Source: a virus
Length of the DNA stretch: 31,614 bases
Reading direction: 5' to 3' (one strand)
Virus record (IMG/VR): IMGVR_UViG_3300044972_000541
Span: 1-31,614 of that record
A program made the position numbers and the translations under genes. The notes below the pieces were generated by a model that had not been told where the DNA came from, searched no databases, and was given only the letters and a program-made list of their open reading frames with translations. Shown here piece after piece: positions 10,417 to 25,602 of this stretch; the first letter of the stretch is position 1; each line of letters opens with the position of its first letter.

Positions 10417-10615
10417 AGACATCATGGCCTGCCACCTTATCAAATAGGATGGTATCCCCTGCCTTAATGTCTAAGACATTAGTGCCAGGCTCAACGATGC
10501 GTGCCTTGTGGTATCTTAAATCGTCAGAGTCCTCCCCCGATAGGAGAAGACCTGACTTTGTTTCCTTTTGCTCGATGATCTTGTCGATCAGGATGAACTT
10601 ATTTATTACCTTCAT
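10355..10615 (-). CDS. groES: GroES-like co-chaperonin
   Basis: An 86-residue co-chaperonin that should cap the chaperonin ring. It matches the GroES fold in order: VINKFILIDKI (first strand), a short mobile loop region with KETKSGLLLSGED, ARIVEPGTNV, then the AGDTILFDKVAGHDVFIGETRLYLIQ core split over 52-78 and the ending DVVCVLD. It is slightly shorter than host GroES (about 95). It overlaps the groEL end by 17 nt, so the pair is coupled in the reverse of the usual host order. Its tail overlaps the convergent winged-helix gene by 62 nt. Confidence 0.9.
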   Translation of the reverse strand: MKVINKFILIDKIIEQKETKSGLLLSGEDSDDLRYHKARIVEPGTNVLDIKAGDTILFDKVAGHDVFIGETRLYLIQEKDVVCVLD

Positions 10616-12161
10616 AGTCTCTTACGTTTGTGATGATTGAACTTGTGCTCATGATCGTCGTAGCGACTGACACGGCATTTAATAAGGCGTTCTTAGTGAC
10701 TTTCGCTGGATCAATGATACCAAGCTTCATCATGTCGCCGTACTGCTCTCCTTTGACGTCGTAGCCCTCATTCTCGAAAGGTAACATACTAGAGATAATG
10801 TCCTCATCATCTTTACCTGCGTTTGTGATGATCTGAGCCATAGGAGCAGCTAGTGCATGCTTCATAATAAGGCAAGCTGTTGAGTTACCCGGTAAAGTTC
10901 TAGCACAATACATTAATGCCGATCCACCACCCGGAAGGATACCCTCCTCTTTTGCAGCTCTTACCGCACACACAGCATCGTCAATACGATCCTTCTTCTC
11001 CTTCTGCTCAATGTCGCTCAATGCTCCAACATAGATCACAGCAACACCGCCCGATAGATTGGCAACTCGCTCGTTCACAAAGTCAACCTCGTTCTTGTCA
11101 GTTATTCCGTTCGTTGATTCCTTTAATGATGCAATATGAGATTCAACGGCGTCAGCCGTTTCGATTGTTGGGATAAAAATCGTATTATCCTTACCAACAA
11201 CTACGCGTGCAGCTGTTCCCAACGTATCTAATGTGATCAACGATAAGTCATCACCAGTGTTCTCACTGAAATATGTTCCACCCAATGCAATAGCCAAGTC
11301 GTCCAATAGGTCTTTCTGACGGTAACCAAATGATGGAGGTAATATGTTACATGCCTTAATTTTACCCTGAGCAACGTTCATGTTTAACGTAGCCAAAGCA
11401 TTTGCACCTAACTCACCAATAATCAATAAAGACTTTCCTTGAGATACAATCGGAGCCAATATCTTCTCCAAGTTCATTAAGTTACTTATCTCATGGTCGC
11501 TGATCAAGATGTATGGATTCTCTAACACACACTCCTGACGTTTGTGGTCGTTGATGAAATACTTCGATGTCATACCTCGCTCGATACGCATACCCTTCAA
11601 TACGTCTACATATGTAGTAGTTGTTTGACTGTTCTCAACAGTAACCATGTCAACCTGACTAAATGCATCACCAATCATCTTACCGATCTCCTTGTCATTG
11701 TTTGCAGAGATTGATGCCACGTCGTATAACTTCTTACCAGTGACTTTCTTACTCATTTTGCTAAGGTCTTTTACGACTTTAGCTGTAATGTCGTTCATCT
11801 CACGGATCACCTCAGTAACATTATCATCATCTGTAAGGTGAATGTCAGCAGCGTCGATAATAGCCTCAGCCAATACAATTGATGTAGTCGTTCCGTCACC
11901 TGCAACCGTTGCAGTGCGCTCAGCTGCCTGACGCATCATGATCACAGCCAAGTTCTCAACCGGATCTAACAGGTTGATTGACTTAGCGACCGTCACACCG
12001 TCCTTTGTTACTGTAATACCACCGATGTGGTTCTCTGATTCAATTAGTACCGTGCGTCCGCGCGCACCTAATGTACTTTTGACTGCTCCGGCAATCGTCT
12101 TGATCCCCTTTTTGAGCTTTTTTTGGCCTTCAGAAGCCTCTAATACTTGTTTTACTACCAT
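10599..12161 (-). CDS. groEL: GroEL-like chaperonin
   Basis: A 520-residue group I chaperonin, ATP-driven, folding proteins inside a ring. Hallmarks are TLGARGRTVLIE, VTKDGVTVAKSI, the nucleotide motif AGDGTTTS (Asp of GDGTT), ISANNDKEIG, the apical-domain region ERGMTSKYFIND, and the C-terminal ATP-site motif ILPGGGSALMY. It is about 25 residues shorter than typical GroEL and lacks the GGM-repeat tail, ending RDYEGNK. The ATG at 12161 (MVVKQVL) is chosen over one at 12182 because a -7 box lies at 12180-12187. It is cotranscribed with groES. The probable role is folding phage structural proteins; an active chaperonin is inferred. Confidence 0.93.
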   Translation of the reverse strand: MVVKQVLEASEGQKKLKKGIKTIAGAVKSTLGARGRTVLIESENHIGGITVTKDGVTVAKSINLLDPVENLAVIMMRQAAERTATVAGDGTTTSIVLAEAIIDAADIHLTDDDNVTEVIREMNDITAKVVKDLSKMSKKVTGKKLYDVASISANNDKEIGKMIGDAFSQVDMVTVENSQTTTTYVDVLKGMRIERGMTSKYFINDHKRQECVLENPYILISDHEISNLMNLEKILAPIVSQGKSLLIIGELGANALATLNMNVAQGKIKACNILPPSFGYRQKDLLDDLAIALGGTYFSENTGDDLSLITLDTLGTAARVVVGKDNTIFIPTIETADAVESHIASLKESTNGITDKNEVDFVNERVANLSGGVAVIYVGALSDIEQKEKKDRIDDAVCAVRAAKEEGILPGGGSALMYCARTLPGNSTACLIMKHALAAPMAQIITNAGKDDEDIISSMLPFENEGYDVKGEQYGDMMKLGIIDPAKVTKNALLNAVSVATTIMSTSSIITNVRDYEGNK

Positions 12162-12179
12162 TTTATTTGAATTTAGATA

Positions 12180-12187
12180 CAAAAATA
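12180..12187 (-). promoter_or_regulatory. Candidate -7 box for groEL-groES
   Basis: On the minus strand this is TATTTTTG, matching TAnnTTTG, about 19 nt upstream of the groEL ATG. No TTTG is found 19 nt further upstream. A second perfect -7-like box (TACCTTTG, minus strand) lies at 12268-12275, also without a -33 partner. Either may drive the chaperonin genes. Confidence 0.45.
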
Positions 12188-14158: not shown

Positions 14159-14172
14159 AACTATTTTTTTTA

Positions 14173-14180
14173 CAAATATA
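14173..14180 (-). promoter_or_regulatory. -7 promoter box for the leftward operon
   Basis: On the minus strand this is TATATTTG, a perfect TAnnTTTG, 15 nt from the ATG at 14158. The expected -33 TTTG 19 nt upstream is absent (CCTC), so either another factor is used or the -33 is degenerate. Location at the head of the operon supports it. Confidence 0.5.
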
Positions 14181-14189
14181 ATAATTTTT

Positions 14190-14530
14190 TAGATGGTCGG
14201 AGGTTTTGGGTAATACCCCCATTCCGCGCGAACGCTCGCAAAAGGAAAACGTTTTAGAAATCGACCGGGGGGTTGCCATTTCCAAAAGTTCGGCCGGAAT
14301 TTTTGGCTTTTTGGTTTGGGTCTTCCTGTTTGACGTGGTGACCTATATACTATACAGCCGGCCGGCCTTTCGTTATGCGCGCGCGGTCGCCTAGGCAATG
14401 TATATAATCTGCCGGCCGTTGTGCGTAGTCGATACCAACCCAAGCCCGTGCGCTCGGCCGGTCGTCCGGTCATTCAGTCGGTCGGTCGTTTGTCGCGTCA
14501 CGTCGGACGTGCGGAGGGGAGGGGTTGCAC
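14190..14530. other. G+C-rich palindromic non-coding tract
   Basis: About 340 bp that is plainly richer in G+C and CpG than the rest of the window. It contains five GGCC sites, a perfect 8-bp arm pair CGGCCGGC / GCCGGCCG (about 14359-14366 with 14411-14418), a GCCTAGGC palindrome, AAAACGTTTT, a CACGTC-G-GACGTG inverted repeat near 14497-14510, and repeated GTCGGTCGG. Small ORFs in it have unlike-protein composition. It lies between the divergent operons. Possible roles: origin, packaging or recombination site, regulator-binding tract, or a second structured RNA. Confidence 0.55.
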
Positions 14531-14700
14531 CTTTCTTAATTAATACCAATCAAACAAAATCAATTCATTTGTCGTATTGTTTCGCGCTGAAATCGTTCTC
14601 CAGTCTAGTATATGGGCATTTTTTACCGCTAAGCAAACGTGTCTCCTTATTTAGAATGAATATAAATTAGCATAAAATGTGAAAGTTTTTGTTGAAAATG
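14531..14700. other. A/T-rich spacer before the RNA promoter
   Basis: No gene or strong structure is seen. One 10-nt sequence, TAAGCAAACG, occurs at 14630-14639 and again at 14735-14744, where it covers the predicted transcription start of the structured RNA. This could be a binding site or a duplicated start region. Confidence 0.35.
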
Positions 14701-14731
14701 TTTGCACAATCCAAAAGTATGCGTATCTTTA
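14701..14731 (+). promoter_or_regulatory. Strong Bacteroidota-type promoter for the structured RNA and early genes
   Basis: A -33 box TTTG at 14701-14704 and a -7 box TATCTTTA at 14724-14731 (TAnnTTTG with one mismatch) are spaced by exactly 19 nt, the classic Bacteroidota primary sigma factor arrangement. Transcription is expected to start near 14738. It is the best full promoter in the window. Confidence 0.75.
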
Positions 14732-14737
14732 CAATAA

Positions 14738-15245
14738 GCAAACGAGCTAATAACAATTGAAATAAGACACTATACATCGGTGACCAATGACCACTACTTA
14801 ATCCTCTGCAATGTGACAAGGTGAAAGTAATAAGTAGGGCGAGGCGTTGGTAATAAATTCCAAGCTAGTGTTTTTTAATTAACAAGCAAGCCCTAAGGCG
14901 TTACGATGACGAATCAGTATACTCAGGGTGTCCGAGACGATAAAGTCTTACAGAGTGCCTTTCGAGGATAACACAAAGTAAGTCGGTTCAAGGTAGGACG
15001 GCTAAAGCTCTAAGCAAGTTCATTGAAATACGATATTATTTGAGACTAAAAGCGGTGCGGAGGTCGATACGATAGCACAAAGCTAGGACGAACCTAGGGC
15101 GCATGGTACACTACTCAGGTGGCCATGCGTCGGAACCACGGCTCAGGCCGTAGGGATTAACAGAGGGCCGGCGGTTTCACGCGGTCGGCAAAACTTAGGT
15201 GTAGTTAGAATGACTAATTAATGGAAGCGACATCCACTACACCAC
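14738..15245 (+). ncRNA. Large structured RNA, candidate new class or early-operon leader
   Basis: About 500 nt without a credible ORF, directly after a strong promoter. Local helices found by eye: 14794-14800 with 14831-14837; 14837-14840 with 14890-14893; 14922-14927 with 14932-14936 (one bulge); 14955-14960 with 14965-14974 capped by UUCG; 14981-14985 with 14999-15003; 15055-15058 with 15075-15078 (inner 15064-15066 with 15070-15072); 15083-15087 with 15093-15097; 15098-15106 with 15123-15131 (9 bp, inner 15109-15111 with 15119-15121); 15138-15142 with 15147-15151 (UCAG loop); 15167-15173 with 15080-like arms at 15180-15182 and 15186-15189; and a three-way junction: 15198-15204 with 15237-15243 enclosing hairpins 15205-15217 and 15222-15236. 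It lacks signatures of tmRNA, RNase P, 6S or a group I or II intron. Size, location in a phage and many small helices recall the ornate phage RNAs GOLLD and ROOL, but no sequence match can be claimed. No terminator is seen before 15269, so it may also be a leader. Confidence 0.7.
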
Positions 15246-15268
15246 TAACCATTTAATAACTAGAAATT

Positions 15269-15442
15269 ATGAAAACTTATTTTTATTGCGTAGAAGATAG
15301 CTACGGCCAAAGAACAGGAATTTACAGAAAAATTCAATTGAATGAAAGTGATATCGAATTAAATAGGTTCGGTTGGAAAACATACAATGGTCATTTCCTG
15401 TATGAAGATGAAATACAAGTATCATTAGCTTGTTTAGATTAA
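15269..15442 (+). CDS. First early ORF, unknown function (57 aa)
   Basis: A 57-residue protein with many aromatic residues (MKTYFYCVEDSYGQRTG, then FGWKTYNGHFLYEDE). It starts at an ATG in the context TAGAAATTATG, which recurs before two other genes in this cluster. It is the first ORF after the structured RNA. No family recognised. Confidence 0.6.
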   Translation: MKTYFYCVEDSYGQRTGIYRKIQLNESDIELNRFGWKTYNGHFLYEDEIQVSLACLD

Positions 15443-15473
15443 TTAATTACTAACCATTTAAATCCAACTAACC

Positions 15474-15584
15474 ATGGAAGCAAGAATCATCAGAATCGAG
15501 GGGCGCTATGAAATCATAGGTTTCTTTCAAGACGGCGTATTAGTAAGAACACGCAAATTATTAATCCCATTTAGAGCACGTTAA
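15474..15584 (+). CDS. Tiny ORF, unknown function (36 aa)
   Basis: A 36-residue basic ORF (MEARIIRIEGRYEIIGFFQD, ending PFRAR). Alternating hydrophobic residues suggest a small beta hairpin. It sits between two supported small ORFs with a 2-nt gap to the next. Support is position and spacing only. Confidence 0.45.
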   Translation: MEARIIRIEGRYEIIGFFQDGVLVRTRKLLIPFRAR

Positions 15585-23282: not shown

Positions 23283-25602
23283 TGATACCAACACACCATA
23301 TCATGTAGACGTAAGTGAAGCAATCAAGAGAATAAGAAACGGAAAGTCAAAAGAATTAGTAGAGGCTGTCCGTCAAGAGGTTGACAAGGAAAGCCGAAAC
23401 GAACGGAAGAAAAAACTTCCAGCCATTTGCTTCTCCGGTACATTCTCACGACGAGCTGACAACGCGATACTTGAGCATAGTGGGTTGATATGTATCGACT
23501 TCGATGGGTTCAGGGATGAACAACATCTAGAGACAATGCGCCAACAGCTCATTGAAGATGACTACAGCTATTGTGTATTCATTTCACCATCAGGTGACGG
23601 CCTTAAGGTCCTAGTAAGGATACCAAAGGACTCGATGAACCACAAGAAGTATTTCAACTCACTACAAAAGCATTACAACTGTGAGGAGTTTGACGTTACG
23701 AGTAAGAACATTAGTCGTGTATGCTATGAGTCATACGATCCTGAGATATTCGTTAACGAGCTATCATTCGTTTGGTCTGAGATAGAGGCCGAGGATGAGT
23801 ACAAGCCTCAGGTACGACCGATGATCAAGGTTGACGATACAAATGAGATAACAAGACGTCTGACAATATGGTGGAACAAAAGCTATGGCTTAGTCCCCGG
23901 TCAACGCAACAACAATCTATTTGTATTGGCTGCTGCTCTTAACGAGTTTGGTATTGATCAGACGACAGCTCAGCAGGTATTGATGAACATCGATGCTTCA
24001 GGCGAGATGCATAAAGAGATACCAACCATTGTCATGAGTGCGTATAGAGATATCAGCAAGCATGCGACGAAGTTCTATGAGGACGTTGACAAGACCAATA
24101 ACATCAAACGCGACCTGAAGATGGGCATACCGAAAGAAGAGGTAGCTCAGATACATGGTGTTGAGGAGGTGTATGAGGATGAGGAAGACGACTTGTTTTG
24201 GACCAAGTCTAGTAAAGGCAAGGTTGAGCTGGTTCCATTCTTATTTAGACAGTATCTAGAGAAGCATGGGTTCTACAAGTACTATCCTCCGGGATCATCA
24301 TCGTTTGTATTCGTTCGTGTGGTTGACAATACCATCAACGATGTAAACGAGGATATGATTAAGGACTTTGTGCTTGACTACCTACTAACGATTGATGACA
24401 TGTCGGTATATAACTTCTTTGCATTGAACACTAAGTTCTTCCAGGAGACATTCTTAAACTATGTCCCTAAGATAGATGCGAAGTTTAAAGAGGACGGTGT
24501 TGACGAGGCATACCTATACTACAAAAATTGTGCGGTCAAGGTAACGAGAGACGATATCATTAAGATAAACTACAAAGACCTTGGCGGTCATGTGTGGGAG
24601 AAACAAAAGATTGACCGTGACTTCCATAAGTCAGAGAATGCTGATTGTGAGTTTAAGAAGTTTGTGACAAATATTTCGGGCGATGGCTCCGAGCACTTAC
24701 GCTCGATGGAATCAACGCTTGGTTACTTGATGCATTCACATAAACCACCTAGCTATTGTCCGGCAGTTATTTTAAATGATGAGGTGATCAGCGACAACCC
24801 TGAGGGTGGTACAGGTAAGGGTATCTTTGTTAAGTCTATCAGCCACATGAAGAAGATGGTGATAATAGATGGTAAAGGATTCAGCTTCCAAAAGTCTTTC
24901 CCATACCAAAGGGTACAGGTAGATACACAGACACTAGTGTTTGATGACGTATCACGGCACTTTGACTTCGAGAGGTTGTTCTCTGTCATTACTGAGGGGA
25001 TAACGCTTGAGAAGAAGAATAAGGACGAGATACATATACCGTTCGAGCGATCGCCAAAGATCGTCATCACTACAAACTATGCAATCAAGGGTGCAGGTAA
25101 TTCATTCGAGAGACGTAAATGGGATTTAGAGTTCAAGCAGTTCTACTCAAAGTCATATACACCTGAGAGTGAGTTCGGTCACATGTTGTTTAGTGGTTGG
25201 GATAAGGATGAGTGGAATAGGTTTGACAACTACATGATTAAGAACATACAGCTTTACTTAAACAAGGGCTTAGTTCGTAGTGAGTTCAAGAACCTTAAGA
25301 CACGCAAGTTTATCGCTGAGACCTCAGCAGACTTCTGGGAATGGTGCACTGATCGTGACAACATTGATACCAAGGCGAAAGCTAAGACACTTGGTCAGAC
25401 ATTATTTAATACATTTACTGAGCAGTACTCTGACTATGGTCAATACGGAAGGTATAAGTTATCCCATAATAAGTTTTACAAATGGTTAGATGCTTATGGT
25501 GAGTATGCATTCAATTGCAAGCCAAGGGTATATAGAGTATCTAATGGCAAGGAGGTTGAATTTATAGTTAAAGAACCAAAACAATCTGAATTAAATTTTT
25601 AG
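23257..25602 (+). CDS. Primase/SF3-like helicase fusion (VirE N / BT4734-like)
   Basis: A 781-residue replication protein. Residues about 55-120 match the BT4734/VirE N-terminal primase-like domain (FSGTFSRRADNAILEHSGL, CIDFDGF with acidic pair, then FISPSGDGLKVLVRIP). A helical middle follows. The C-terminal half is a P-loop ATPase: Walker A GGTGKG near residue 517, Walker B LVFDDV near 560, sensor-like KIVITTNYA near 605, and a helical end. This is the plan of primase-helicases of phages and mobile elements that start and unwind replication forks. It follows the DnaA-like gene and precedes other DNA-processing genes. Confidence 0.82.
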   Translation: MITYFKSINDTNTPYHVDVSEAIKRIRNGKSKELVEAVRQEVDKESRNERKKKLPAICFSGTFSRRADNAILEHSGLICIDFDGFRDEQHLETMRQQLIEDDYSYCVFISPSGDGLKVLVRIPKDSMNHKKYFNSLQKHYNCEEFDVTSKNISRVCYESYDPEIFVNELSFVWSEIEAEDEYKPQVRPMIKVDDTNEITRRLTIWWNKSYGLVPGQRNNNLFVLAAALNEFGIDQTTAQQVLMNIDASGEMHKEIPTIVMSAYRDISKHATKFYEDVDKTNNIKRDLKMGIPKEEVAQIHGVEEVYEDEEDDLFWTKSSKGKVELVPFLFRQYLEKHGFYKYYPPGSSSFVFVRVVDNTINDVNEDMIKDFVLDYLLTIDDMSVYNFFALNTKFFQETFLNYVPKIDAKFKEDGVDEAYLYYKNCAVKVTRDDIIKINYKDLGGHVWEKQKIDRDFHKSENADCEFKKFVTNISGDGSEHLRSMESTLGYLMHSHKPPSYCPAVILNDEVISDNPEGGTGKGIFVKSISHMKKMVIIDGKGFSFQKSFPYQRVQVDTQTLVFDDVSRHFDFERLFSVITEGITLEKKNKDEIHIPFERSPKIVITTNYAIKGAGNSFERRKWDLEFKQFYSKSYTPESEFGHMLFSGWDKDEWNRFDNYMIKNIQLYLNKGLVRSEFKNLKTRKFIAETSADFWEWCTDRDNIDTKAKAKTLGQTLFNTFTEQYSDYGQYGRYKLSHNKFYKWLDAYGEYAFNCKPRVYRVSNGKEVEFIVKEPKQSELNF

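Follow-up and report, generated by a model that had tools for sequence, protein, structure and literature searches.

A family of cassette-built structured RNAs at the head of an early operon in uncultured Bacteroidota-type phages

Only a few classes of large structured RNA are known in phages. GOLLD RNAs combine a universally conserved 3' region with a less conserved 5' region, tRNAs being sometimes located in the linker, and a ROOL example of 659 nt assembles as a nanocage (PMC12286853). A smaller structured RNA can also open a phage transcript: the put RNA of phage HK022 belongs to the early transcript and suppresses pausing and termination (PMC9378689). The RNA considered here is encoded on the plus strand of the virus record IMGVR_UViG_3300044972_000541, whose 31,614 nt (31.6 kb) were analysed as a whole, are referred to as the window, and are probably a piece of a longer genome. 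It extends from a 5' hairpin at about 14737 to about 15244. A preliminary description of this DNA had proposed a large structured RNA, possibly of a new class, between 14738 and 15245; both proposals are borne out by the strong covariation among homologues and the absence of any Rfam match.

The RNA resembles GOLLD as a large structured phage RNA with a constant 3' end, a variable 5' part and, in some relatives, inserts that look like a tRNA T-arm. Unlike GOLLD, which often exceeds 800 nt, it measures 220-570 nt, swaps whole discrete cassettes and lies at the head of an early operon rather than in a tRNA island (the 31.6-kb window contains no tRNA or transfer-messenger RNA (tmRNA)); the Rfam covariance model of GOLLD gave no match. 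The likeness to ROOL is that of a large ornate RNA of phages and prophages without known function, but the ROOL covariance model did not match either, and the genomic context is different. HK022 put is likewise a structured RNA opening an early phage transcript, as the flanking promoter and early genes suggest here. However, put is a short RNA with a cis action on RNA polymerase, whereas the RNA described here is far larger, modular and found in Bacteroidota-type phages; put can thus serve as a precedent for its location but not for its form. No Rfam family, GOLLD and ROOL included, was matched by the window and 14 relatives at gathering score or in focused searches at E values of 5-10. The Rfam and ARAGORN models of tmRNA, RNase P, 6S RNA and group I and II introns gave no match, in agreement with the preliminary description, which had set these classes aside. 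Membership of the DUF2693 RNA family (RF02956) was rejected: one cassette of a relative (L046) reached 13.6 bits against a threshold of 81.3, a chance-level match (E = 3.9).

Homologues and covariation

A search with the neighbouring 385-aa protein yielded three IMG/VR relatives, two of which (L002 and L003) carry a homologue of the RNA with about 74-77% identity and visible compensatory changes. The set was enlarged by scanning 2.9 million viral contigs for patterns taken from conserved parts of the RNA and by a covariance model of the 3' domain. The family now comprises about 38 loci, designated by L numbers, in uncultured Bacteroidota-type phages. Five loci left out of model building (L033, L027, L043, L038, L016) are matched by the model with E values of 7e-16 to 4e-27, and more distant loci with 8e-10 to 8e-13.

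The 3' domain of 26 loci was aligned with MAFFT without structural information. Its proposed partners can pair in 98.9% of the cells; shuffling lowers this to 83.0%, and displacing the partners by 1-3 columns to 42% or less. Double changes affect 26 of the 37 pairs, spread over all six helices. Cassette B, an inner domain of the RNA, is 93.6% paired, and 21 of its 29 pairs show double changes. When 38 loci are aligned to the model, which biases the alignment in its favour, double changes are seen in 31 of the 37 pairs of the 3' domain. Because the carriers form a few related groups, cell counts overstate the number of independent events. Such kinship is allowed for by a tree-based null, in which each alignment was re-evolved along its own tree. 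When all column pairs are considered, seven are significant at E < 0.05, four in the 3' domain and three in cassette B; all seven belong to the structure and none lies outside it. The covariation check suggested in the preliminary description thus comes out positive, and as judged from these alignments the region 14738-15245 holds a real structured RNA family.

Compensatory change would also be expected of inverted repeats in DNA, so that the hairpins could act as DNA in protein binding, packaging or recombination. The cells counted in four domains argue otherwise: G-U pairs greatly outnumber A-C mismatches (100:8, 56:12, 153:8 and 47:1), an excess to be expected only from a plus strand that folds, and therefore acts, as RNA. 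As a promoter is moreover directed into the region, an element working at the DNA level is very improbable.

Still less credible, to the point of being negligible, is a hidden coding region or chance folding. It could appeal to the folding energy of the full 508 nt, which is no better than that of shuffled sequences (z = -0.61). The energy check proposed beforehand therefore fails for the whole element but succeeds for its 3' half (15029-15248; -70.8 kcal/mol, z = -3.62), which none of 200 shuffles equalled; the three-way junction at 15198-15243 has a z of -2.39. The full-length test is outweighed, since covariation among the homologues is overwhelming and the energy test is weak here. The homologues vary by insertions and deletions, whole blocks and compensatory changes, and the covariation refutes this explanation. 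As previously noted, no credible open reading frame (ORF) occupies the region: its plus strand has none of at least 25 aa, and the sole ORF overlapping 14738-15245 is a 50-aa, TTG-initiated frame on the minus strand (14667-14819).

A mosaic of exchangeable cassettes

Beyond what the preliminary description could see from one sequence, the main novelty lies in the comparison with related phages, in which the RNA appears as a mosaic. Over 36 loci, the order is a promoter, a hairpin with the loop AAACGA, an optional cassette A or A', an optional B with a B1 or B2 apex, an optional X (L040, L046), C1 or C2, the hairpins H, P and D, an optional T and the three-way junction E. The constant 5' hairpin and the near-constant 3' junction form a frame, between which the folded cassettes are interchangeable. 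The T cassette, present in some loci only, consists of the T-arm look-alike GATGG-TTCGATT-CCATC inside an ACTTG/CAAGT stem. A cassette called F replaces B-C-H-P-D in L132, L135 and L139, and only E is retained in L134 and L138, with other material on its 5' side. The length of the RNA ranges from about 217 to 569 nt.

The copy in the window has the architecture A-B1-C2-H-P-D-E, all on the plus strand. The constant hairpin AGC-AAACGA-GCT (14737-14748) is the probable 5' end of the RNA, as judged by comparison with relatives, in which its stem changes in step (GGC/GCC, CGGC/GCCG). Comparison likewise delimits the optional cassette A (14766-14873, closing stem GACACTA/TAGTGTT), which is missing as a block from L003 and L017 and replaced by A' in L014, L026, L039, L047 and L132. 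A and A' have a sub-motif in common, GRTGAAAGTAATAAG; their folds are less certain because the available sequences are few and similar. Cassette B (14884-14999) contains the helices 14890-14897/14922-14929, 14902-14907/14913-14919 and 14930-14933/14996-14999, together with 14945-14957/14972-14984 and 14958-14960/14965-14967. Cassette C2 (15030-15097), in whose place most relatives have C1, includes the hairpin CTAGGACGAACCTAG at 15083-15097. It is followed by the H hairpin (15098-15131), with the conserved apex TACACTACTCAGGTGG at 15107-15122, by the P hairpin (15136-15154), with compensatory changes in all six of its pairs, and by the D hairpin (15167-15189), with a conserved GTTTCACG-type loop. 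The E junction, exact over the span first described (15198-15243), is formed by 15198-15204/15237-15243, 15205-15208/15214-15217 and 15222-15225/15233-15236, and its end is separated by 25 nt from the ATG at 15269.

Some structural candidates were rejected. A loop-loop interaction of AAAC in the 5' hairpin with GUUU in D was dropped, as D is retained in L133, where that 5' loop is missing. The 3' junction has no catalytic core and was therefore not taken for a hammerhead, and a generic scan for three-way junctions was too permissive for use.

Pairs of close relatives illustrate the exchange. The 300 nt upstream of the RNA are 98% identical between L025 and L010, yet the former carries B1-C1 and the latter A-B2-C1; L005 and L022 are 96% identical over the same length, yet differ in cassette A. 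From such comparisons, cassettes turn over fast and whole blocks at a time. Exchange of whole cassettes while the flanking DNA barely changes is a property that we know in no other phage RNA class, and this turnover suggests selection by hosts or competitors. In L140 and L141, a C1-H-P-D core without E follows an ORF of the same strand, and in their neighbourhood the RNA itself is the only clear match to other carriers.

The early transcript and possible roles of the cassettes

Leftward genes, including GroEL, and rightward early and replication genes, including a 781-aa primase, diverge around the RNA region. The Bacteroidota-type promoter TTTG-N19-TATCTTTA of the early transcript was found at 14701-14731 on the plus strand, directly 5' of the RNA, where the preliminary description had placed its best promoter. 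Sites of this type number four in the window against 0.54 expected, and an equivalent promoter stands just 5' of the RNA in most relatives.

At the other end, an A-rich unpaired gap (15244-15268, plus strand) separates E from the first early gene of the window, a 57-aa ORF (15269-15442, plus strand). The gap is probably the ribosome landing site of that gene. Among the 33 loci measured, 32 have their first ATG 14-27 nt past the end of E, although the gene behind varies; in the remaining one, L034, the ATG of its close relative is replaced by ACG. Shine-Dalgarno sequences are naturally lacking in Bacteroidota (PMC6847099). Given this and the A-rich gap, the RNA seems to reach the edge of the first ribosome landing site. 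It is independent of the 57-aa gene, since in L003 that ORF is found at another place and the RNA is followed by a 36-aa ORF. Because E nearly always ends 14-27 nt before a varying first gene, the early transcript probably begins with the RNA; of a free RNA and a leader, between which the preliminary description did not choose, this placement favours synthesis together with the early genes.

The reading that we favour, with a probability of about 0.48, is that each cassette is a module that acts in trans by binding factors of the host or of rivals. Made as soon as infection begins, the RNA would form the first 0.2-0.6 kb of the early transcript and would fold on its own. Its cassettes could bind their factors as decoys or as a scaffold, whether still attached to the mRNA or released by a cut near the E junction, and the leader position would couple the dose of RNA to the early promoter. 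Phages would shuffle the cassettes as targets change, like accessory counter-defence genes. Such a role would account for cassettes that are exchanged like accessory genes and freely gained and lost.

Several observations weigh against this proposal. Cassette exchange is the sole argument for trans action and for counter-defence. The location strictly at the operon start, almost always in the orientation of its genes, fits a purely cis-acting leader equally well. No intrinsic terminator was found after E, so that the RNA is not obviously a separate transcript.

A purely cis-acting leader is a serious, if less favoured, alternative. It would alter RNA polymerase, or control how stable the early polycistronic mRNA is or how it is translated, with no function beyond that transcript. 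This explanation agrees with the place of the RNA in front of the early genes and in their orientation, with a start codon 14-27 nt past E whatever the gene, with the single copy per phage record and with the precedent of put. However, 220-570 nt with several exchangeable cassettes far exceed the needs of put, strong plus-strand terminators are few in the following 16 kb, and the gain or loss of whole cassettes would be odd for a polymerase-binding element. Masking of the ribosome-binding site is not evident either, because the E junction leaves the start site uncovered and the linker past E is not conserved.

The gap between leftward and rightward operons is also a frequent location of origins, and conservation extends to the upstream DNA, as could be expected of a replication element, i.e. 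a pre-primer or origin RNA in a divergent control region. RNA II is the pre-primer RNA of ColE1. Yet the core of L140 and L141 lies outside any such divergent gap, and exchange of cassettes is unexpected for a primer; this explanation is improbable.

If the cassettes do act in trans, phages would use modular RNAs where proteins are usually expected. The element could then, tentatively, be termed a cassette RNA: a fixed 5' cap hairpin and a fixed 3' junction holding exchanged self-folding modules, each perhaps with a different host target. It would do as an RNA what a counter-defence gene island does with genes, and would be new as a kind of molecule; no account of an RNA built in this way turned up in the open-access literature, searched in an incomplete collection that largely lacks preprints. 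The natural chimeras are ready material for finding the binding partner of each cassette, and the family extends the short list of large phage RNA classes by one that is proven by covariation.

Distribution of the family and neighbouring elements

A single copy of the RNA was found in 18 of the 19 whole records tested; the nineteenth, L136, was rejected as a carrier, its pattern match being due to chance. About 890 draws of Bacteroidota genomes, some of them shared between samples and all under strict filters, yielded no match to the RNA model. A blastn search of 50,697 GenBank-derived phage records with the window and two relatives returned only a chance match of 34 nt, located at the 3' edge and linker of the RNA. 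Known carriers are thus uncultured phages. A pattern scan of genome contigs gave 72 matches; those inspected by sequence context or RNA model were chance matches, and L092 was the sole weak match to the RNA model (17 bits). The host is probably a Bacteroidota bacterium, as suggested by the promoter type and by the primase relatives in Flavobacterium, Cellulophaga and Polaribacter phages. The best annotated cousin, MW202828.1 ('Podoviridae sp. ctfjg026'), has 49% primase identity and an equal layout, despite which the RNA model had no match in the 41 kb searched.

In the window, the GroEL-like chaperonin is phage-encoded at 10599-12182 (PHROG 5725, E 1e-125). A block at 14160-14330, which begins with TTTTTTTTACAAATATAATAATTTTTTAGATGG and contains GGGTAATACCCCC, is almost identical in L003, where the adjacent DNA has diverged; it is perhaps the control region of the leftward operon. 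Between 14250 and 14530, the G+C content rises to 0.52-0.56 from about 0.35-0.40 in the surroundings, and CGGTCGGTCGG-like repeats occur that are found again in relatives. Just 5' of the early promoter, TTATTTAGAATGAATATAAATTAG (14647-14670) is near-invariant in most relatives and resembles a Fur-type imperfect palindrome. One subgroup (L014, L019, L026, L033, L043, L133, L139) has CTACGTAGTTATACGTAGA-type repeats in place of the usual upstream sequence, and in several of its members the standard promoter was not found.

Downstream of the RNA, within 15244-15467, repeats of ACTAACCATTTAA lie on both sides of the 57-aa ORF, which, relative to L003, is inserted between the RNA and the 36-aa ORF. 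The basic 36-aa protein (MEARIIRIEGRYEIIGFF...; 15474-15584) is encoded by a conserved early gene of nearly all carriers, often directly behind the RNA. In MW202828.1 (L122), a palindrome with GTTAACGACAC is present in 14 copies 5' of many early ORFs (e.g. at 24547, 24814 and 25150) and is likely a phage-wide operator or promoter element. At 24485-24541 of the same record, an element closed by the 8-bp stem GGTAGGGG/CCCCTACC and followed by ACTAACC precedes an early ORF; it resembles a remote form of the E junction that lacks the other cassettes.
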